Assembly: GCA_017959005.1 (NCBI GenBank)
Contig: JAGDBO010000005.1
Span: 1 to 52,448 of the forward strand
Reading direction: 5' to 3'
DNA from: Bacteroidales bacterium
GTDB lineage: Bacteria > Bacteroidota > Bacteroidia > Bacteroidales > UBA932
DNA length: 52,448 nucleotides
In this document: piece by piece, positions 1 through 44,417 of the stretch
Position numbering within the stretch: the first letter of the stretch is position 1
Layout: each line of letters opens with the position of its first letter
Notes under the pieces: generated by a model
Databases searched by the model: none
What the model was told of the DNA's origin: nothing
What the model saw: only the letters and a program-made list of their open reading frames with translations
Program-made: the position numbers and the translations under genes

Positions 1-147
1 ATCCACCCACACCCGCATCGCCTCCCCACACATCGCCTCCCCCCACTGCGGGCGCCCCCAGTGCAGGCGTTCCCCCCACTGCGGCGATTCCCTCCCCACA
101 CTGCAGGCGCCCCCCACCACTCAGCTCCAACGAGCCCCTCAACTAAA
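1..147. repeat. C-rich imperfect repeats at the window edge
   Basis: The + strand is strongly C-rich and repeats short blocks of the form CCCCACTGC followed by GGCG or GCGG, with spacing of roughly 25 to 30 bases; a related block (CCACTGCGGGTG) recurs near 277. Base composition is clearly unlike the rest of the window. On the minus strand one frame stays open from about 120 to the window edge and reads as a repetitive peptide with PQWGE-like blocks, but there is no convincing start and the remainder lies outside the window. I therefore call it only a repeat region. It could be the low-complexity end of a gene to the left, or a non-coding repeat. Confidence 0.4.
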
Positions 148-235
148 GTGTTCCCGGTGTCCGGAAAACAGGGACACTGGGAACGAAAAAGGGGGTAAAA
201 CGTTCCCGGTGTCCGTAATTTGGGACGCTGGAAAC
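148..235. repeat. Palindromic repeat pair, unit A (two hairpins plus linker)
   Basis: Two inverted repeats lie at 148-185 and 201-235, separated by the linker AAAAAGGGGGTAAAA. In the first, the left arm GTTCCCGGTGTCC pairs with the right arm GGGACACTGGGAAC apart from a G-T pair, around a short A-rich loop. In the second, CGTTCCCGGTGTCC pairs with GGGACGCTGGAAACG. The compensating differences between copies keep both stems foldable. The same two-hairpin-plus-linker arrangement recurs at 294-379, and a single hairpin of the same family occurs inside aroE (43235-43273). Confidence 0.8.
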
Positions 236-293
236 GGCTGGAAACAAGCAGGACATGGAGAAAGCAGGAGGGGCTCCACTGCGGGTGAACCGT

Positions 294-379
294 GCTAGGT
301 GTCCGGAAATCAGGGACACCTGCAGCAAAAAAGGGGGTAAAACGCTTCAGGTGTCCGAAAAATGGGACACCGGCAGCAG
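294..379. repeat. Palindromic repeat pair, unit B (two hairpins plus linker)
   Basis: This is the second copy of the composite unit. Hairpins at 294-326 (core AGGTGTCC with GGGACACCT) and 344-379 (CAGGTGTCC with GGGACACCGG) are joined by a linker almost identical to that of unit A (AAAAAAGGGGGTAAAA). The outer arms have changed from GTTCCC/GGGAAC to GCT/AGC-type sequence while the GTGTCC/GGGACAC core is kept. The second hairpin supplies an ATG at 362 that artificially extends the reading frame of the next gene. Confidence 0.75.
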
Positions 380-448
380 TTTCAATGTTTAAATTGGAGA
401 AATGGTTATATTTGTAGAGACACATGTGGAAGTTCAAAAAAACATTTT

Positions 449-1144
449 ATGAAGCACGTTTATGATTTTCTAGCACGGTTGGCAAAGAACAACAACAGGG
501 AATGGTTTGAAGCCCACAAAGATGAGTACCTGGCTGCAAAGGAGATCTTTGACAACTTTACTAAAGAACTGATTAGGGAGATAAGCCGTTGGGACCCTTA
601 CATTGACCATAGAAGACTCACCGTACAGGACTGTACTTACAGGATTTACAGAGATCTTCGCTTCTCCAAGGACAAAACTCCATACAAAACCCACATTGGC
701 TGCTTCATAACTCACGGAGGCAAAAAATCTCAATATCCAGGATATTACTTTCACATGGAACCACCTGAGAGCGGTTCCTTCCTTGGCGGCAACATTCTCT
801 TTGCCGGTATCTATATGCCGGAGCCCAAAGTGATTGCCAGCATTAGAGATGAAATCTCAGTTAACGGAGACGCTCTCATTAAGGCTATTAACAAGGCCAA
901 AGGATTTGTACTTCAATACAACGCCCTCAGAAGGGTGCCTGCCGGATATGAGAAGGTAGAGGATGAGGGGTGGCGCAATCTTATAAAGCTCAAGGAGATA
1001 AGCATGTTCTCCAATGTATCTGAGAATTTTCTCTTTGCACGTGGCAACCTGGCAAAGCGTGTATCAGAGAGGTTCAGATACTGCAAGGATCTCAACCTAT
1101 TCCTGAACCGTTGCGTGGACTATGCAATGGAAGGCAACATATGA
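449..1144 (+). CDS. DUF2461 family protein (TIGR02453-like)
   Basis: The 231-residue product begins MKHVYDFLARLAKNNNREWF, the typical opening of DUF2461 proteins (a short helix, then NNxREWF and HKDEY). A central block with YRIYRDLRFSKDKTPYKTHIG is the most conserved stretch of that family. The biochemical function of the family is unknown; the protein looks cytosolic, with no signal peptide. The frame is open back to an ATG at 362, but that ATG lies inside a palindromic repeat and the added 29 residues do not resemble the family, so I place the start at 449. Identification rests on recalled family motifs, not a search. Confidence 0.85.
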   Translation: MKHVYDFLARLAKNNNREWFEAHKDEYLAAKEIFDNFTKELIREISRWDPYIDHRRLTVQDCTYRIYRDLRFSKDKTPYKTHIGCFITHGGKKSQYPGYYFHMEPPESGSFLGGNILFAGIYMPEPKVIASIRDEISVNGDALIKAINKAKGFVLQYNALRRVPAGYEKVEDEGWRNLIKLKEISMFSNVSENFLFARGNLAKRVSERFRYCKDLNLFLNRCVDYAMEGNI

Positions 1145-14600: not shown

Positions 14601-14880
14601 CCCTGAACATTGTATAGTCATGAACCAGCCTCCTCAGAACCTCCTTAGCCTTCTCCCTCTCTTTTGGATTATTTATCTCTTTCCCGATAGATTTTTTATA
14701 GAGCGTCTCTATTATTCTCTCCTTCATCTCAAAGGTTGCCTTGTTGGTGAAGGTAACCGCCATAAGATGTTTGTAGGCCTCAGGCCCTCCCTCCATAAGG
14801 TACTCCGCAAACTTCTTTGAGAGGTTGTGAGTCTTTCCGCTGCCGGCAGATGCGTTGTAAACCAGTAACTTATTTTTCAT
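11608..14880 (-). CDS. addA: AddA/RecB-like UvrD-family helicase-nuclease
   Basis: The 1090-residue protein has Walker A ASAGSGKTHNL near the N-terminus, motif II in LLDEFQDTSDSQWENF, motif III/IV blocks (VGDIKQSIYRWRGGD, LLVNFRS), motif V/VI (KILTMHKAKGL, LAYVSFTRARERLYIY) and a C-terminal PD-(D/E)XK nuclease signature (IVVDYKFG). This is the layout of AddA subunits that process double-strand breaks for recombination with AddB. Length is close to the usual 1050-1250. It overlaps the AddB-like gene by 11 bases and is the last gene of the six-gene minus-strand operon. The symbol is by analogy. Confidence 0.9.
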   Translation of the reverse strand: MKNKLLVYNASAGSGKTHNLSKKFAEYLMEGGPEAYKHLMAVTFTNKATFEMKERIIETLYKKSIGKEINNPKEREKAKEVLRRLVHDYTMFRVSTIDSFFQKVLRAFALEMGHRGAFETSIDSETAVSSALDGLYSKLGNKGFEKMLERINNLSLARIDDDKNWDWKRDLLKISKQIVEEGYRSKRKEAEERLKEGEKLISYEEFNRQLNAKYRALEKEFLEPLFALNESLITACQPLDKSFLNGNTAKKFKSTLCGEKRFISSKSKLVTPLYGKDQILDIDRWNSEPEYFFRKNTPESVVNSYKESVGVILSKIEALYDKHYTHYLSYRLISENIRETILLDYVSDELVEYLKEQQLTLLADAPQILSDLISGSDTPFVYEKIGTTLEHYLLDEFQDTSDSQWENFSPLLSNSLASGKSSLLVGDIKQSIYRWRGGDWEILKDKIPALFKDYYEEEPLLVNFRSLSNIVKFNNLLFSEPGFLVHEIAEGLKEEVKGEAKIHLPAVITDIYKNSAQSVRDEYKDIPQKGVVKVIYPAKSKYTGYITNLSGFVCADIIYRIRELTEGENAKYSLSDIAILVNSNRQAETLASSLINNGISITSNDSLLLYLNNTVAVLLELLRKLVDPTDERLEALVRISSAKVKNLSLFTEESEEAEAFRAKLADCGTLYEMCEVLLNTFVESYPSSDEGFIKAFLDRVLEFNTTYGTNVTSFLRWWDEKRGKFFLPEHSSTVDAVKILTMHKAKGLAFKVVFAPFLREEVFRLKGSRWIISSSEWLGCNAPLMINVESKNFRESIYGKEADEELLQNCIDNLNLAYVSFTRARERLYIYCTKTDEKSLSSYLNKFCFNNSLFSKEEKVLTLKELCEVDRCADPEDDRLDFTYTEYTLGDPSESRPPKISDDSYSLYTVQEADGNHLTASLSSESQKAKLRSKYDNDDNVRRGILMHEIFSYIGEVSQQSDIKEVVEGAVEKFLKKNPTTLLGDDKTKIVETILSLLPDAAEYGWFTDKYSVENETEYLDGANIFRPDRVMYSKNGDETIVVDYKFGTLSSQNSYLRQVRGYMDILKRLQKENVKGYLWYVFEGKIIEV

Positions 14881-17842
14881 CTCTCACCTCCCTGTTACAA
14901 ATGGTTACAAAATCACAATAGGTGCACCCCTTCTCACTTGAGCAGACAGGCATACGCCCCTCAACGGACGGAGAACATTTACCCTCCAGCTCCTCTATCA
15001 GAGCCCTAAGCCTCTCTGCAAACGCCTCAATTTGAGCACGGTTCACGCGTATAACAATAGGACCGCATTTATTGAGAAGTTGCAGCTGATATATGCAGAG
15101 TTCCACATCTCCCTTGTATGCTCTCTCTTCAGATATCATAAGAGCGTAGAAGAAGAGTTGGAAGAGAATCTTTGTGCGCGTATCTCTGAGTTCCCCAACC
15201 TTGAACATATTCTCAAGATCCTTGGAGAACTGCTTCTCTTCCAGAACAGTATAAGACTCTTCAGGAGCCTTGTCCAGGAACTTACCGCTCTTGTAATCAC
15301 AGACTCTGTAAATGCCGTTTTGATTCTCCAAGCGGTCTATCTTTATCAATGCCTTAGCGGAGAAGAGTCCCATATCTATAGGATACTCAGCACCTTCAAA
15401 GTAATACTCACCCCTCTGAACCTTTTCCAAATCCTTCTTGAGAGTTATCTTTATATACTTCTTAACAGACTCCTTTATCACAAGGTTCTCCCCCTCAATC
15501 ACCTTGACCTTCATATTGACTCTAAAGGCCTCAGCAATAAGCTCCTCCAGCCGCTCATCCGTATTCTCCGCGATGAGCTTTTTCGCAAACTCCTCCGTCA
15601 CCTTTACGCTTTTGGCTTTCAAATACTTACAGTATATGTGCTCCATGCAGTAGTGGAAGATGTCCCCGTAGTTTTTGGCCTCTACTGAATCCGTAAGGTC
15701 TTCGTCATCTCCACCCAGCCCAAGAATCTTTTCAAAGAAGAATCTTCTGTTACAACTTATGTAGGTGTTTAAAGATGATGGAGATAGATGTCTCTGATGC
15801 CCTTCAGCATCTGCAACAAAGTAGTTCTGCAGCCTCTGTTTCTCTTTGTCCGTCAGAACAATATCCTCATCATAAGAGACGTTTGGAGTTGGAACCGGAG
15901 AAGTGAATGTACGCTTAACCGGCTTAATACCAAAATCATAGACCAGTTGCTTAATGAAACGGCTCTCCTCCTTGGTCTTCAGATTCTCAGTGTTGGTGTC
16001 ATAAATCATATAGACGTTCTCCGCCCTCTGAATCAGACGATAGAAGTTGTATGAGGAGATGCTGTCCTTGTCCTCATAGGTTGGGAGGTTGAAGGCCTTG
16101 CGTAAGAAGTAAGGGATTGCGCTGGTACGCTCTCCGCTTGCCGGAAAGAGGCCGTCATTAAAGGAGAGGAATATTATGTTCTTAAAGTCCAAACACCTGG
16201 TTTCCAGCGGTCCCATAATCTGCACTCCCTGTAGAGGCTCCCCTCTGAACGCCACATTCCTCCCATTCAACCCGCTCCTAATCACTGCATACACAGTCCT
16301 GGCCTGCCCAAACGCCCCCGCCACCGCGCCCTCAGAACTGACTGCAGATGAAGATATTGCATCCAACACCTCGTGCATACCGTTCACAAAGCACCTCTCA
16401 CGGCTTGTCAAATACGGTGCTACGTATTCTATGATCCTTCTTAAATAGTTAACTATCTCTAACGTAAGGTTGCCTTGAGCGTTTGAAAACATCCCGTCTG
16501 TAGGAACCAGCAACTGCAGCAGGGTGGCCATACGTTCACCCTTGGTATCCAGCGGGTTCCTACCCGTCAGCTGAGCAGCCTCAACAAGTATCATATTGGA
16601 TGTAAGTATGCGGTCAGAAGCCCTCTTTGCATCCTCCTCGTCCACACTCAGAATATACGGATGAGAGAGGATCTCCCTCAGAACCGAGCCGCTCAGATAA
16701 ATCCCCTTATCCCTCTTCTTTGCCCTTAAATGCAACGCTGCCAGAGAGTTAAAGAGTGAAGCAACCGCAGTTGAACGAACCGGATAGCCCATTGTTATGT
16801 TGAGATTCTCCTCATTAATCACACTCAGCAGCGGCAGCAACAAATTCTCATCAGAGACCACAATTGCACTCTCCAACGGTTCCCATCCTTCTCTCTCTTT
16901 TATCTCTTTCAGCAGCTCTGAGGCGATCATGGTTTGCTCCACCTGCCCCGCCGCCGGTATCACCTGATATGAGCAACCGCCCTCAGTGTACGGCAAAACC
17001 TCTCCGGGGAACTCCTCTACACACTTGGAAATCAGCAATGAAGATTTATTATCCGGCGCTTTGATAAACTCCGAATAGTAATCCCAGTAGAACAAGGCCT
17101 TGGAGCTTTTCTGCAGATGCTCCATCACTCTCTTTTCACAAACCGTAGGCGCGGAGAACCCTATGAATACAACGGTATTAAGTTCGGCCAGCTTGTCTGA
17201 GCACGCATCCAGGTCCTCTGCTACAACCCTCATGCGCAGAGCCGGATAGACCTTGCCCTCAGCTTTCAACGCAGCACTGAAGTCCGCATACACCTCATAC
17301 AGAGAATCCCAGATATCAAAGTAACGTTTCTTAATCAGCTTATCAGAGATATTCTTGCTCATAGCAGAGAGTCTCTTTGTAGCCGCCATCTGCCTCTCAT
17401 TCAACCATTCAAAGCCGGTAGAGAGATTCTGCAAATCTTCTAAATTGGTAAAGAGCTGCTTAGGATCTACCAGATACTGGTCTATATCATTGAAGTCCGA
17501 GAGCAGAATCTTGCCCCAATAGAAGAACTCATCCAGTGGTTCATTGTAGAGGTTCTCCTCCTTAACGCCCTTCCGGCGCTGCTTTGAACGCTGCACCTTG
17601 GTGTAAGATTTCCAAAGGCGGAAAAGCAGGGAGAGTTCATCAATGACGGTAAGTGTGCTGAGCCTCTCAAAGAGCTCATCTACAGTGAGAATCACCGGTG
17701 CCTTGATTGGTCCTTTGGAGAGTTCTCCAAGGTATTTTCTAAAGAAGACGGAACTCCTTCTGTTTGGGAAGATGAAGGAGTGGCGGGAAAGATCCTTTCC
17801 CACAAACACCTCTGCAACCTGTTCTAAAAACTTACTTTTCAT
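14870..17842 (-). CDS. addB: AddB-like PD-(D/E)XK nuclease/inactivated helicase
   Basis: The 990-residue protein starts with a helicase-like fold (HSFIFPNRRSSVFFRKYL, ILTVDELFERLS) and has IIFLSFNDGLFPASGERTSAIPYFLR in the middle, as in AddB-type proteins. A C-terminal nuclease domain follows: LSPSSLNTYISCNRRFFFEK, VCDYKSGKFLD, and Cys residues CTYCDFVTIC near the end that, with the Cys of SCNRRF, can form the iron-sulfur cluster of AddB nucleases. Partner of the overlapping AddA-like gene. Its ATG overlaps the stop of the antiporter gene by four bases. Confidence 0.88.
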   Translation of the reverse strand: MKSKFLEQVAEVFVGKDLSRHSFIFPNRRSSVFFRKYLGELSKGPIKAPVILTVDELFERLSTLTVIDELSLLFRLWKSYTKVQRSKQRRKGVKEENLYNEPLDEFFYWGKILLSDFNDIDQYLVDPKQLFTNLEDLQNLSTGFEWLNERQMAATKRLSAMSKNISDKLIKKRYFDIWDSLYEVYADFSAALKAEGKVYPALRMRVVAEDLDACSDKLAELNTVVFIGFSAPTVCEKRVMEHLQKSSKALFYWDYYSEFIKAPDNKSSLLISKCVEEFPGEVLPYTEGGCSYQVIPAAGQVEQTMIASELLKEIKEREGWEPLESAIVVSDENLLLPLLSVINEENLNITMGYPVRSTAVASLFNSLAALHLRAKKRDKGIYLSGSVLREILSHPYILSVDEEDAKRASDRILTSNMILVEAAQLTGRNPLDTKGERMATLLQLLVPTDGMFSNAQGNLTLEIVNYLRRIIEYVAPYLTSRERCFVNGMHEVLDAISSSAVSSEGAVAGAFGQARTVYAVIRSGLNGRNVAFRGEPLQGVQIMGPLETRCLDFKNIIFLSFNDGLFPASGERTSAIPYFLRKAFNLPTYEDKDSISSYNFYRLIQRAENVYMIYDTNTENLKTKEESRFIKQLVYDFGIKPVKRTFTSPVPTPNVSYDEDIVLTDKEKQRLQNYFVADAEGHQRHLSPSSLNTYISCNRRFFFEKILGLGGDDEDLTDSVEAKNYGDIFHYCMEHIYCKYLKAKSVKVTEEFAKKLIAENTDERLEELIAEAFRVNMKVKVIEGENLVIKESVKKYIKITLKKDLEKVQRGEYYFEGAEYPIDMGLFSAKALIKIDRLENQNGIYRVCDYKSGKFLDKAPEESYTVLEEKQFSKDLENMFKVGELRDTRTKILFQLFFYALMISEERAYKGDVELCIYQLQLLNKCGPIVIRVNRAQIEAFAERLRALIEELEGKCSPSVEGRMPVCSSEKGCTYCDFVTICNREVRDEK

Positions 17843-40000: not shown

Positions 40001-41533
40001 ATGGAACAGAATCTTAACGAACAGGAACAAATAAGAAGACAGTCTCTTCAGCTGATACGAGACTTGGGTATAAATCCTTATCCGGCAGAGGAATATCCTA
40101 TTACAGCCACTTCCAAGGAGATATTGGAGGCTTTCAACCCGGAGGCTGCGGAGGATGACCCTTCACAGCAGAAGTTTAAGGAGATATCCTTTGCAGGACG
40201 TCTTATGAGCCGCCGAATTATGGGTGCCGCCTCATTTATAGAGCTCCAGGATGCAGAGGGCAGAATCCAGGCCTACGTAAAGAGAGACGAGGTTTGCCCG
40301 GGAGAGGACAAGACGCTCTATAACACTGTCTTTAAGAAACTTCTGGACATTGGAGATATCATTGGAATTAAGGGATACGCCTTCGTAACCCAGACAGGTC
40401 AGAAGTCCATCCACGTTAAGGAGCTTAAGGTTTTAAGCAAGTCCCTAAGAGTGCTCCCTATCGTTAAGGAGAAGGACGGAGAGGTATATGACGCCTTTGC
40501 AGATCCTGAGATGCGCTACCGCCAGAGATATGTGGATCTCATTGTAAATCCGGACGTTAGAAAGGTATTTGAGAAGCGTACCACAATATACAACACCATG
40601 CGTGAGTTCTTCAACTCCCACGGTTATCTTGAGGTTGAAACCCCTATCCTTCAGCCTATTCCTGGAGGAGCCAACGCACGTCCGTTCGTAACTCACCACA
40701 ACGTTCTGGATATGGATCTCTATCTGCGTATTGCAGACGAGCTCTACCTCAAGCGCCTTATAGTTGGCGGATTCCCAGGTGTTTATGAATTCTCAAAGAA
40801 CTTCCGTAACGAGGGTATGGACCGCACTCACAACCCTGAGTTCACAGCAATGGAAATCTACGTAGCCTACAAGGATTACTACTGGATGATGAACTTTACG
40901 GAGCAGATGCTGGAGAAGATCTGCGTTGCGGTTAACGGAACCACCAAGGTAAAGATTGGAGAGAACGAGGTAGATTTCAAGGGACCATACAAGAGACTCC
41001 CTATGCTTGAGGCAATTAAGCAGTACGCCGGAGTGGATATCACCGGAATGAATGAGGATCAGCTCAGAGAGACCTGCAAGAAGCTCAACGTTCCAATTCA
41101 GCCAAGCTTTGGAGAGGGCAAACTCATAGATGCAATCTTTGGAGAATTCGTTGAGGATAAGCTCATTCAGCCAACCTTCATCATAGATTATCCTGTTTCA
41201 CTCTCCCCGCTTACCAAGAGAAAGAGAGACAACAACAACCTGGTTGAGAGGTTTGAACTCTTTGTTTGCGGCAAGGAACTGGCAAACGCATACAGCGAGC
41301 TCAATGACCCTATAGATCAGCTAGATAGGTTCCAGGACCAGTTGCGTCTGAAGAACGGCGGAGATGACGAGGCAATGTATATAGACTATGACTTCATCCG
41401 CTCACTGGAGTACGGAATGCCGCCAACCAGCGGAATGGGAATTGGAATGGACCGCCTCACAATGTTCATGACTAACCAGGTCTCCATTCAGGATGTCCTC
41501 TTCTTCCCTCAGATGAAAAAGGAGCAATACTAG
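40001..41533 (+). CDS. lysS: Lysyl-tRNA synthetase, class II
   Basis: The 510-residue protein has an N-terminal OB-fold ([23 protein letters not shown]), class II motif 1 ([29 protein letters not shown]), motif 2 ([26 protein letters not shown]) and motif 3 ([19 protein letters not shown]). It charges tRNA-Lys. Length is about normal (500). Motif 2 residues for ATP binding are present. First gene of the lysS-trmH-like-aroE cluster. Confidence 0.97.
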
Positions 41534-41546
41534 TATCTCCCGATAG

Positions 41547-42614
41547 ATGAACGCTTTACTACAGAACGCAACCCCTATCACCTCACTTCAGAACCCCAAG
41601 GTGAAAGAGGCCGTTTTGCTGCAGGAAAAGGCCCGTGAAAGGGAAAAGCGCTCACTCTTTGTTGCTGAGGGAGTTAGGGAAATCACCGCTGCAATCACAT
41701 CCGGCTTTGAAGTGGAATCTCTCTTTTTCTGCCCGGATATTATTACAGACTTTCCTTTCCCGATAGATTCCCGCACACGCCTCTTTTCTCTCCCTTCCAA
41801 CGTCTATGCTAAGATTGCCTACCGCTCAACTACAGAGGGCGTTACAGCAATTGTCAAATCCAAGCACCTCACGCTTGAAGACCTTACCCCACTGCTTTAT
41901 CCTAACTCCGCCTCCAACAATAATGCAACAACTGGCAGAGCATCATCCAACAGTAAATCCACAGCAGACAGGACATCATATAATAAGAAAATATCAACAG
42001 AGAATTCAACAATTGTTGCATCACAAAAATGCAATAATCCATTGATTATCATTGCAGAGGCAGTAGAGAAACCTGGCAACCTGGGAGCAATACTCCGTAC
42101 AGCAGACGCCGTTGGAGCAACCGCTGTTCTCTTCTGCAACCCAAAGACAGACCTCTACAACCCCAACCTCATACGTGCATCACTTGGCGGAGTCTTCACC
42201 CAAAAGATTGTCTGCTGCAAAACAGAGGATGCCATCAAATGGCTCAAAGCCAACAAAATAAAAATCTACAGCGCACAACTCCAAGACTCCGTTCCATACT
42301 ACGGCACAGATATGACCCTTCCGTGCGCCATAGCCCTGGGAAGTGAAGCAGATGGAATCTCCACCGAGTTCCGCATTGCCTCAGATAAAAAGATAATGAT
42401 TCCAATGCTGGGAAAACTGGACTCCCTCAACGTCTCAGTCTCCGCCTCCATCCTCTGCTATGAAGCCCTAAGACAGCGAGTTGCAAAAGCACAGAAGGTT
42501 GCTCAACCACAGAAGGTTGCACAAGCACAGAAGAATCAGAAAGCGCAGAAGATTCAGGAAGTGCAGAAGATTCAGGAAGTGCAGAAATTGCAGAAGATTC
42601 AGAAATCAAAGTAA
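41547..42614 (+). CDS. SpoU/TrmH-family RNA 2'-O-methyltransferase with low-complexity insert and tail
   Basis: The 355-residue protein has an N-terminal substrate-binding domain (LFVAEGVREITAAI) and a SPOUT methyltransferase domain with IIIAEAVEKPGNLGAILRTADAVGATAV, IRASLGGVF, AIALGSEADGIS and MIPMLGKLDSLNVSVSASILCYE. Between the two domains is an Asn/Ser/Thr-rich insert of about 45 residues (about 117-163). The C-terminus carries an extra Gln/Lys/Val repeat (QKVAQPQKVAQAQK, then QKIQEV copies) of about 40 residues (42487-42614). Family enzymes are about 250-275 residues, so both regions are additions. Modification target (23S rRNA or tRNA) not fixed. 13 bases after lysS, 12 before aroE. Confidence 0.88.
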   Translation: MNALLQNATPITSLQNPKVKEAVLLQEKAREREKRSLFVAEGVREITAAITSGFEVESLFFCPDIITDFPFPIDSRTRLFSLPSNVYAKIAYRSTTEGVTAIVKSKHLTLEDLTPLLYPNSASNNNATTGRASSNSKSTADRTSYNKKISTENSTIVASQKCNNPLIIIAEAVEKPGNLGAILRTADAVGATAVLFCNPKTDLYNPNLIRASLGGVFTQKIVCCKTEDAIKWLKANKIKIYSAQLQDSVPYYGTDMTLPCAIALGSEADGISTEFRIASDKKIMIPMLGKLDSLNVSVSASILCYEALRQRVAKAQKVAQPQKVAQAQKNQKAQKIQEVQKIQEVQKLQKIQKSK

Positions 42615-42626
42615 AAAGGGTCTCTG

Positions 42627-43817
42627 ATGAAAAAGTTTGCACTCATAGGAAATCCCATCCAACATTCACTTAGCCCGGCCCTCTTCTACGCCGCCTATCC
42701 ACAGACGTCAAGCCCCATTTCCCCAAACTCCTCAGTCTCAGATCCTTCTAGCTCAAACACATCTATCTCAGATACATCTACCTCAAGCACATCTAGCTCA
42801 AGCACATCTAGCTCAAGCACATCTAGCTCAAGCACATCTATCTCAGATACATCTGCCTCAAGCACATCTATCTCAGATACATCTGCCTCAAGCACATCTA
42901 TCTCTGAAAGATCTGCATCTGAGTTTGCAGAACAAATGTCATATGAGTTGGTACAGGAAGAGAGTATTGAGGAGTCCATGAAGCGCTTAAAACAAGGCGG
43001 TTACAACGGTTGCAACGTAACGGCTCCGTTCAAAGAGGATGCAATGTGCTACGTCACAGACCCGAGCACCGTCTGCAAAGCACTGCAAGCCACAAACTTG
43101 CTGCTCTTCAAAGAGGATCACACCTACGCCTTCAACACAGATTATCTGGCAGTCCGCCGCCTGCTCCAAGAAAATCAAAAGTGTGATACTAAGCACCACC
43201 TTGCACACCCTACTGAAACTCTCTCTGAAAGTGAGTGTTCCCAGTGTCCGGAAAACTGGGACACCGGGAACACCGTGCTGGTTATTGGGTGCGGCGGAGC
43301 GGGAAAAGCTGCAGCACTAGCAGCAAAGGATGAAGGGTTCAACACTCTCATAACCAACAGAACGGAAGAGAAGGCCGCGGCCTTTGCAAAGTCTATAGAC
43401 ATAAAGGCTATCTCCCAAAAAGAGGCTCACTCCTTTCTCTCTTCACTCATTGACCCTCAGTCAAATCACTCATGCAACTCTAATCCAGAGACCAACAGTT
43501 GCAGCACTAAGACAGAGACCAACAGTTGCAGCACTAAGACAGAAACCAACAGTTGCAGCACTAAGACAGAAACCAACAGTTGCAGCAACAGGCTTCTTGT
43601 CATTTACACTCTGCCTCAAAAAGATGAGCTTCTTTACCCATTGCTTTTGAATCTGAGCACCAGGCTAATTGGCTTAATTGAAGCAAATTACAAGAATCCA
43701 TGCCTCAACCCAACAAGCGGACGCAAGTGGCTGCTTTATCAAGCCGTAGAGAGCTTCCGTCTAATGACCGGCATGGAGCCTTCTCTTGCCTCCATGAAGG
43801 AAGTTATCACTCTTTAG
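42627..43817 (+). CDS. aroE: Shikimate dehydrogenase with three in-frame insertions
   Basis: The 396-residue protein is much longer than the usual 245-290. Conserved parts are intact: IGNPIQHSLSPALF (shikimate site), CNVTAPFKED with the catalytic Lys (about residues 128-137), FNTDYLAVRRLL, the NADP loop VLVIGCGGAGKAA (about 217-229), the NRT block and EANYKNPCL. Three insertions lie between them: a Ser/Thr repeat (about 27-98), the peptide of a palindromic repeat (CSQCPENWDTGN, about 204-215), and a 9-residue repeat ETNSCSTKT (about 288-320). All lie between secondary-structure blocks. Reduces 3-dehydroshikimate; AroK is elsewhere in the window. Confidence 0.9.
   Translation: MKKFALIGNPIQHSLSPALFYAAYPQTSSPISPNSSVSDPSSSNTSISDTSTSSTSSSSTSSSSTSSSSTSISDTSASSTSISDTSASSTSISERSASEFAEQMSYELVQEESIEESMKRLKQGGYNGCNVTAPFKEDAMCYVTDPSTVCKALQATNLLLFKEDHTYAFNTDYLAVRRLLQENQKCDTKHHLAHPTETLSESECSQCPENWDTGNTVLVIGCGGAGKAAALAAKDEGFNTLITNRTEEKAAAFAKSIDIKAISQKEAHSFLSSLIDPQSNHSCNSNPETNSCSTKTETNSCSTKTETNSCSTKTETNSCSNRLLVIYTLPQKDELLYPLLLNLSTRLIGLIEANYKNPCLNPTSGRKWLLYQAVESFRLMTGMEPSLASMKEVITL
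42759..42905 (+). repeat. Ser/Thr-coding tandem repeat inside aroE
   Basis: Three near-perfect 15-bp units (ACATCTAGCTCAAGC) are followed by about two and a half 30-bp units alternating ACATCTATCTCAGAT and ACATCTGCCTCAAGC. All units are multiples of three bases, so the frame is preserved. The translated repeat is STSSS and SISDTSASST. Confidence 0.85.
43235..43273. repeat. Palindromic repeat element inserted in frame in aroE
   Basis: The left arm GTGTTCCCAGTGTCC pairs with the right arm GGGACACCGGGAACAC (one G-T pair) around GGAAAACT. It is closely related to the hairpins at 148-185 and 201-235: the sequences TTCCC, GTGTCCGGAAAAC and GGGACAC are shared. The 39-base element keeps the aroE frame, and no stop codon occurs in any of its six frames. 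It lies just before the NADP-binding loop. Confidence 0.85.
43488..43586 (+). repeat. 27-bp tandem repeat inside aroE
   Basis: Three full 27-base units and an 18-base partial unit encode ETNSCSTKT copies. Units start at 43488, 43515, 43542 and 43569. Units differ by one or two bases (GAG or GAA), so expansion looks recent. It is a candidate for length variation between strains. Confidence 0.9.
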
Positions 43818-43856
43818 AGAGCATTGCAAAATGCTTTGAATATTCGTAAATCTTTT

Positions 43857-43888
43857 CTTGCAGTTTTCCGTTTTTCTGAATAATTTTA
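43857..43888 (+). promoter_or_regulatory. Probable ssb promoter
   Basis: CTTG at 43857-43860 (-33 position) and TAATTTTA at 43881-43888 (one mismatch to TAnnTTTG) are 20 bases apart. The ATG follows at 43908. A small inverted repeat, AGCATT with AATGCT at about 43820-43834, just after the aroE stop could be an attenuator or terminator hairpin, but has no clear T-tract. Confidence 0.35.
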
Positions 43889-43907
43889 CGCGTTAAAATT
43901 TTGAATT

Positions 43908-44417
43908 ATGTCTTTCAATAAAGTATTCATTTTAGGAAACGCGGGGAGAGATCCGGAGGTAAGACACCTCGAGGGCGGAGCGGCAGTTGCAAATTTCACG
44001 GTAGCAACTTCAGAGGTATTCAGAGACCGCAACGGCAACAGACAAGAGAGAACCGAGTGGCATAACATCGTATGCTGGAGGCAGTTGGCAGAGTTTGCTG
44101 AAAAGTATGTAAAGAAGGGAACTCAAGTATTCATTGAGGGTAAGATTCGTACAAGAGATTACACAGATCAGAGCGGACAGAAGAGATACGTTACTGAGAT
44201 TTTTGCAGACAATCTTCAGCTCGTTGGAAGAAAGTCAGACAATCCTGCAAACAGCGCAGGCGGATACCAGGCACCGGCTCAGGACGGTTATCAGGCTCCG
44301 GCGCAACCAACTCAGGTTCAGAGGCCTCAGCCTGCTGTACCTCAGGCGCAGGAGACCGCAGACTTCCCTTCAATGGATGACTTCAATGATACGGATGCAA
44401 ATGATCTTCCGTTCTAA
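43908..44417 (+). CDS. ssb: Single-stranded DNA-binding protein
   Basis: The 169-residue protein has an OB-fold over about residues 1-110 (MSFNKVFILGNAGRDPEVRHLEGGAAVANFTVATSE, TEWHNIVCWRQLAEFAEKYVKKGTQVFIEGK), a Gln/Ala/Pro-rich linker (GGYQAPAQDGYQAPAQPTQVQ), and the acidic tail ending NDLPF that recruits repair and replication proteins. Length is in the normal range. 39 bases precede purA. Confidence 0.96.
   Translation: MSFNKVFILGNAGRDPEVRHLEGGAAVANFTVATSEVFRDRNGNRQERTEWHNIVCWRQLAEFAEKYVKKGTQVFIEGKIRTRDYTDQSGQKRYVTEIFADNLQLVGRKSDNPANSAGGYQAPAQDGYQAPAQPTQVQRPQPAVPQAQETADFPSMDDFNDTDANDLPF

Follow-up and report, generated by a model that had tools for sequence, protein, structure and literature searches.

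REPs typically carry a GT[AG]G foot and often occur as inverted pairs, and "atypical secondary structures" are noted for the Bacteroidetes TnpAREP subclass 2.6 (accessible part of PMC6006769). REPs inside genes have already been described in other bacteria (accessible part of PMC3733652). The same text counts Rickettsia RPE-4 and RPE-6 among intragenic GTAG/CGTC REPs, places CGTC repeats in some Bacteroidetes as well, and describes CGTC repeats as apparently lacking a RAYT. The DNA analyzed here, hereafter the window, is a stretch of 52,448 nucleotides from a gut-type Bacteroidales genome of 1.8 Mb in 22 contigs (G000). It contains a family of hairpins, which we call type A, that recurs between genes and lies in frame within aroE. 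We consider it probable that the element is a REP-like hairpin of a RAYT-REP system that is new in sequence and layout, in which a RAYT seeds the copies and arrays inside genes are kept in frame.

The type-A hairpin family

The left end of the window holds an intergenic array of four copies, scored with a covariance model (CM) built from 46 hairpins:

148..185, + strand: type-A copy 1 (CM 63.5 bits)
200..235, + strand: type-A copy 2, 52 bp from copy 1 (CM 50.6 bits)
290..326, + strand: type-A copy 3 (CM 51.7 bits)
342..377, + strand: type-A copy 4, 52 bp from copy 3 (CM 47.4 bits)

Degenerate C-rich repeats (CCCCACTGCGGGCG) adjoin this array at 21-114. Genome-wide, the model finds at least 47 distinct full copies in G000 among the best 150 of 624 candidates; at most 150 candidates were scored in each genome, and the counts are lower bounds. 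These copies form 14 arrays, the ends of contigs C12 and C13 being counted as one array on the strength of the flanks of loci in genomes G061 (L138) and G025 (L161). Twelve of the 14 arrays, with 43 of the 47 copies, are intergenic. Genes were distinguished from intergenic space by their ORFs, "intergenic" meaning that no convincing gene crosses the array, and short or N-terminally extended ORFs spanning five arrays (L143, L146, L147, L151, L152) were treated as spurious. The core pattern occurs at 5 sites in the window vs. 0.18 expected. A stricter pattern matches 24 times on one strand of the genome and 7 times on the other, with two sites counted on both strands, and a reversed control gives 0. 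The preliminary description of this DNA had proposed a dispersed, palindromic family, and the genome-wide search for its core bears this out, with the element found well beyond aroE and mostly between genes.

The type-A hairpin has a 13 bp stem and a 9 nt loop. Its left arm reads GTTCCCG, or variants of it, followed by GTGTCC, and its right arm GGACAC followed by TGGGAAC or variants. Across all 46 copies GTGTCC, GGGAC, and two more C columns never vary, a constancy that is partly built in since the selection pattern contained these letters. A unit of 52 bp consists of the hairpin (about 35 nt) and a spacer of 16-17 nt, e.g., GAAAAAGGGGGTAAAAC. All units face one direction in 27/35 multi-copy arrays and one or more are inverted in the other 8/35; head-to-tail order is the rule, but not an absolute one. 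At the edges of 50 arrays the commonest sequences are AAGT (19) and AAAC (8) on the left and ACTT (23) on the right. Neither a GTAG nor a GTGG foot was found at the 5′ edges (0/50), and CGTC was found at neither the 5′ (0/50) nor the 3′ edges (0/50).

Pairing is kept in 90.5% of cells. Both sides of a pair have changed in 23 cells, a number reached by 0/500 shuffles, and the covariation score also beats all 500. The number of pairs with a two-sided change (3) was matched in 456/500 shuffles and that of further pair types (12) in 95/500. An excess of G-T wobbles on the forward strand (46 vs. 16 A-C cells) was left out of account, because the pattern used to pick copies and their orientation favors one such column; in the aroE copy it is the opposite strand that gives the better fold. 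A phage origin of the hairpins and of the RAYTs described below was rejected for lack of matches: window 1-480 had none in the phage collection, the exact 21-nt type-A core was not found in viral_contigs, and the two RAYTs matched no PHROGs family at E 0.01.

Copies inside aroE and other genes

The aroE gene carries copies of two hairpin families:

42627..43817, + strand: aroE (shikimate dehydrogenase), 396 aa, with an in-frame insert (ORF, Pfam, TIGR00507, and Foldseek)
43235..43273, + strand: type-A REP-like hairpin, 39 nt, in frame in aroE at residues about 203-216 (covariance model and fold)
43183..43206, + strand: decayed hairpin of a second family (type B), about 11 nt shorter than intact copies (exact 15-mer at 43192-43206 plus the edge AAAAGTGTG)

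The aroE product matches Shikimate_dh_N (6.5e−14) and SDH_C (4.5e−7) in Pfam and TIGR00507 at 5.2e−29, under that model's cut-off, and its predicted structure matches AroE structures in Foldseek (1.4e−13). It is the sole aroE match in G000. The 39-nt hairpin first noticed in this frame is upheld by the model, with 57.9 bits at 43234-43274, although this copy is itself one of the 46 sequences that built the model. Folded as single-stranded DNA, the + strand reaches −12.7 kcal/mol vs. a shuffle mean of −5.4 (z −4.4; 0/200 shuffles as good), and the − strand folds better still (−14.6 kcal/mol). The preliminary description gave the insertion as about 13 residues, and the hairpin DNA does span 13 codons; the peptide it quoted, CSQCPENWDTGN, has 12 residues, and the whole insert is larger (residues about 186-216) and includes the decayed type-B copy. 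The 15-mer of that copy has five other exact matches in the genome, all in type-B hairpins, and is preceded by AAAAGTGTG, the usual edge of the type-B family.

Of 26 AroE loci found, 24 entered the alignment, and the block is absent from 23/24 aligned relatives. The linker was recovered for 15/30 aroE loci, and those with a type-A insert are G000 and G061, which we took as its sister genome. G061 holds four type-A copies (L037/L165) at the site of the single copy in G000. The two genomes that also have many type-A hairpins do not offer clean empty sites. Window 40407-44076 is 94-96% identical to L163 of G025 upstream of aroE and 82-87% identical in pieces of aroE itself, and against G029 the aroE pieces are 78-79% and most of the flanks 91-94% identical. 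Since aroE is more divergent than its flanks in both, their alleles have likely been replaced.

In the predicted structure of AroE (mean pLDDT 71.8) the shikimate dehydrogenase fold is intact. The insert falls in a loop of low confidence that joins helix 171-188 to strand 216-221, with residues 204-211 below 50. Since the hairpin keeps the reading frame, it probably gives the enzyme a small extra loop.

Two rivals concern aroE itself. One is that the block is an ancestral loop in AroE whose likeness to the hairpin is accidental, or else an artefact of assembly. For it speak the variability of the loop (G034 has a different insert there), the metagenome-assembled nature of the named relatives, and the 22 contigs of G000. 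We reject this reading, whose probability is practically nil, because 23/24 relatives lack the block, the four copies of G061 occupy the same site in a separately assembled genome, and the CM match is 57.9 bits; the ancestral loop that the preliminary description had allowed for is not seen. It is also highly improbable that the insert inactivated aroE and that the gene is decaying. The 15-bp and 27-bp tandem expansions that the gene also contains would agree with decay, but the frame is open in G000, and in G061 up to the contig end, and G000 has no second aroE match. Between G000 and G061, dN/dS is about 0.2 for the native parts and 0.35 when every aligned codon is counted, and K136, N157, and D172, which we take to be active-site residues, are invariant across 22 aligned sequences. 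The aroE gene is under purifying selection.

Other repeats occur in and beside aroE. The two expansions lie at 42738-42919 and 43473-43590, with units of 15 bp (Ser/Thr-rich) and 27 bp (NSCSTKTET). The Ser/Thr-rich stretch at the first place is shorter in G061, and the 27-bp expansion is common to G000 and G061 and absent from the other 23/24 aligned relatives. The insert of G034 (L113), in the same loop, has about 40 residues (RCAQSSAAQSAALPSDLRGF...), and the covariance-model search found no type-A match in that genome. The gene upstream of aroE, presumably rRNA methylase-like, ends in a repetitive QKIQEVQKIQ tail (42490-42614).

Across the four repeat-rich genomes (G000, G061, G029, G025), at least three genes contain type-A copies. 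The second, which we take to be LuxE/PaaK-like and which matched no Pfam family at 0.01, carries arrays in 4/4 of these genomes (three copies at L036, four at L142, four at L150, three at L159), mostly oriented opposite to the gene. The second gene would encode a GVPVFGTPGT-like repeat. The arrays are absent from 14/14 other aligned homologues. That alignment covers 18/20 loci, two having no ORF, and includes the G029 sequence (L194) in a wrong frame, its array being seen by the covariance model. The third gene is PD-(D/E)XK nuclease-like (PF12705, 4.4e−24), with one copy in G029 and none in G000, G025, and G061. Its orthologue in the window is:

14876-17842, − strand: PD-(D/E)XK gene orthologue, without a copy

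Spacing differs between the two settings. Between genes, 62/74 spacings in the four genomes are 52 bp and 4/74 are divisible by three, and the spans of multi-copy arrays fall over the three phases as 13/12/9. Inside genes, the spacings are 51 (7), 54 (3), 90 (1), 52 (1), and 53 (1) bp, i.e., 11/13 are divisible by three (Fisher 3e−9, with the reservation that the second-gene arrays share descent and the 11/13 are not independent). The second gene has spacings of 51 or 54 bp plus one of 90; aroE of G061 has 51 + 53 + 52 = 156 bp, and the spans of all multi-copy in-gene arrays are divisible by three (5/5). These counts omit hairpins cut at contig ends, and the four-genome totals include orthologous arrays. 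The triplet spacings and spans are the strongest sign that in-gene arrays are translated and held in frame. The preliminary description had the element entering genes in any phase by being free of stops in all six frames. This is so for the aroE copy and for the copy at 148-185, but the copies at 200, 290, and 342 have stops in some frames, and it is instead selection for array length that seems to account for the tolerance of in-frame copies.

RAYT genes and the array period

A Y1_Tnp profile search of G000 returned two ORFs, on contigs C13 and C22, with a match below the Pfam cut-off. The NCBIfam model REP_Tyr_transpos (REP-associated tyrosine transposase) matched both of these ORFs, at 1.4e−12 and 2.2e−9, under its 80-bit cut-off. 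The gene on C13 has type-A hairpins on both flanks:

G000:C13:9443-10336, − strand: RAYT gene, 298 aa (Y1_Tnp and NCBIfam matches)

One type-A pair lies 13 bp past its stop codon and another 186 bp before its start. An HUH motif (NHVH or NHIH) and a YVQMN block are kept in 11/11 aligned RAYT homologues, and dN/dS among G000, G061, and G029 is 0.10-0.13. No solved structure matched the RAYT in sequence at E 0.01. Contig C13 (74.5 kb) holds 7/14 of the G000 arrays, the edge array included. Upstream of the RAYT, at G000:C13:10642-10981, is a short tandem repeat with HSFWRIHFDAF-like ORFs.

RAYT orthologues of ≥76% identity occur in G000, G061, and G029 alone among 39 same-genus genomes, the next best being 60% identical. 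Type-A matches on both strands number 87 in G000, 81 in G061, 41 in G029, and 32 in G025; matches are fewer or weaker in G027 (28), G018 (11), G011 (5), and G012 and G028 (1 each). The close RAYT is thus present in 3/4 hairpin-rich genomes (hypergeometric 4e−4, without correction for relatedness). It was not found in G025, which has the hairpins and is 73% complete.

Clade members less similar to this RAYT (48-60% identity) have other hairpins on their flanks, and these too repeat at 51-52 bp. Tandem inverted structures at 51-52 bp were detected at 14/19 RAYT-clade loci vs. 0/28 same-genus aroE loci (Fisher 3e−8). A minority of the 14 are weak. Six have no GGGAC in the listed structure, and at L083 and L164 the copies are only 62-63% identical. 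The scan detected none at the other five RAYT loci (L084, L086, L168, L169, L170), of which L084 still has 51-bp repeats and L086 has repeated blocks by eye. A separate family, type B (GTGCAAGGTG...CACCTTGCAC), belongs to the second G000 RAYT and has a 52 bp period as well. At G000:C16:87582-87640 a type-A array comes after a type-B hairpin, with hairpin starts about 52 bp apart, and arrays of the two RAYT families are mixed there.

It is possible, if somewhat short of probable, that RAYTs of this clade build REP arrays head to tail, with a period of 51-52 bp that does not depend on the hairpin sequence. Within genes the period would shift to triplets (51/54), so that one and the same element would exist as a DNA array outside genes and be translated into a peptide repeat inside them. 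Two RAYT families could then deposit copies at one coding site and repeatedly supply core enzymes with new loops.

Origin of the arrays and relation to known repeats

Copy number at a given site changes fast. One locus has 2/3/4/2 copies in G000/G061/G029/G025 and, 1.4 kb further on, 4/2/2/1. With the C12 and C13 ends taken as one, another genome has a counterpart matching on both sides for 10/14 G000 arrays and on one side for two; the remaining two have no flank match. Much of the change seen is therefore in copy number, and for that slippage or unequal recombination could suffice, with no RAYT. The arrays might accordingly be a minisatellite whose spread and turnover are due to slippage, recombination, and gene conversion, the RAYT being a bystander that has adjoining arrays. 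The shared sites with differing copy number and the exactly 52 bp in 62/74 intergenic spacings speak for this, yet we hold it to be rather unlikely: hairpins that differ in sequence adjoin RAYT genes of the same clade with one common period of 51-52 bp, and for 6/46 array entries no counterpart was found among the arrays fetched from the other three genomes, which contig ends or missing sequence may explain in some cases. Gain of new sites is likely. Another possibility is an element acting in RNA, either a stabilizer at the 3′ end of mRNA or a terminator, for which selection would favor gene ends; the aroE copy would then be accidental. Half of the intergenic G000 arrays (6/12) do lie ≤60 bp from the stop of an ORF of ≥120 aa, but the last hairpin of the arrays is not consistently followed by a T-run, one array (L033) lies between divergent ORFs, and in-frame copies occur in coding genes in both orientations. 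We find such a role quite improbable.

RAYT seeding is the reading we prefer. The putative RAYT, as a member of the HUH single-strand endonuclease family, would recognize the folded single strand, cleave, and seed copies at new sites by transposition, often just downstream of genes, and the hairpin would be mobile. After seeding, copy number at the site would change, and an array inside a gene would persist only if its total length keeps the frame, as the spacing patterns suggest. Tolerance of the encoded peptide in aroE may come from its position, a loop that would lie on the surface just ahead of the NADP-binding strand. The one type-A copy in aroE of G000 could then be the remnant of a site that has four copies in the sister genome and that would also have taken up a copy of the second REP family.

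Why RAYT genes persist in genomes is an open question, raised in the accessible part of PMC6006769. Many RAYT families in one clade, each paired with a different hairpin but at nearly one spacing, may make the recognition rule readable by comparison. In-gene arrays would be a natural test of a non-coding repeat becoming protein, with the shift from 52 to 51/54 bp as a countable mark of translation. Unusual protein loops in metagenome-assembled genomes, which could be mistaken for assembly errors, may also be due to hairpin arrays.

The type-A family resembles the REPs and REPtrons of TnpAREP/RAYT, as the accessible part of PMC6006769 describes them, in being a short hairpin with many copies, mostly intergenic, that flanks an HUH Y1 transposase gene, and in having separate hairpin families for separate RAYTs. 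It differs from the REPtrons presented there in its mostly head-to-tail 52-bp arrays, fixed spacer, and in-frame copies in several genes. With subclass 2.6 it shares the lack of a GTAG foot, and the NHVH or NHIH of its RAYTs agrees with the HuH motif NH[LIV]H. However, the HuH-Y distance is 61 here vs. a median of 82 there, and the tyrosine motif is YVQMNS here vs. YIH[QN]NP there (same source), and membership of subclass 2.6 was rejected on these two differences.

REPINs and BIMEs of enterics and pseudomonads are also RAYT-linked families with many copies, but they are inverted or alternating doublets (accessible parts of PMC3116915, PMC2817692, and PMC6006769), whereas type-A arrays run in one direction in 27/35. 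The BrickBuilt MITE of Porphyromonas gingivalis is likewise a mobile-looking tandem short repeat in Bacteroidales. As its abstract presents it (PMC4596501), it has a 23-nt unit without a spacer, is always intergenic, and comes with no mention of a RAYT, while type A has a 52-nt unit with a spacer and copies within genes.

The preliminary description likened the element to Rickettsia RPEs. The likeness holds in that intragenic GTAG and CGTC REPs, RPE-4 and RPE-6 included, are palindromes in frame in protein genes, single or in clusters encoding tens of residues (accessible part of PMC3733652). Unlike these, as that text describes them, type-A arrays have no GTAG or CGTC edge tag, occur in Bacteroidales with a RAYT present, and have in-gene spacing divisible by three. 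RPE membership was rejected since the CGTC tag is absent, and the affinity appears instead to be with RAYT-associated REP arrays, a RAYT gene being flanked by type-A hairpins. In the literature that is open without subscription, supplements aside, we recognized no report of 52-bp head-to-tail RAYT arrays or of in-gene REPs in Bacteroidales. We therefore class the family as RAYT-associated and REP-like, a new variation on REPs and in-gene RPEs, in which the foot is absent, the arrays are mostly head-to-tail, and the RAYT falls outside subclass 2.6.
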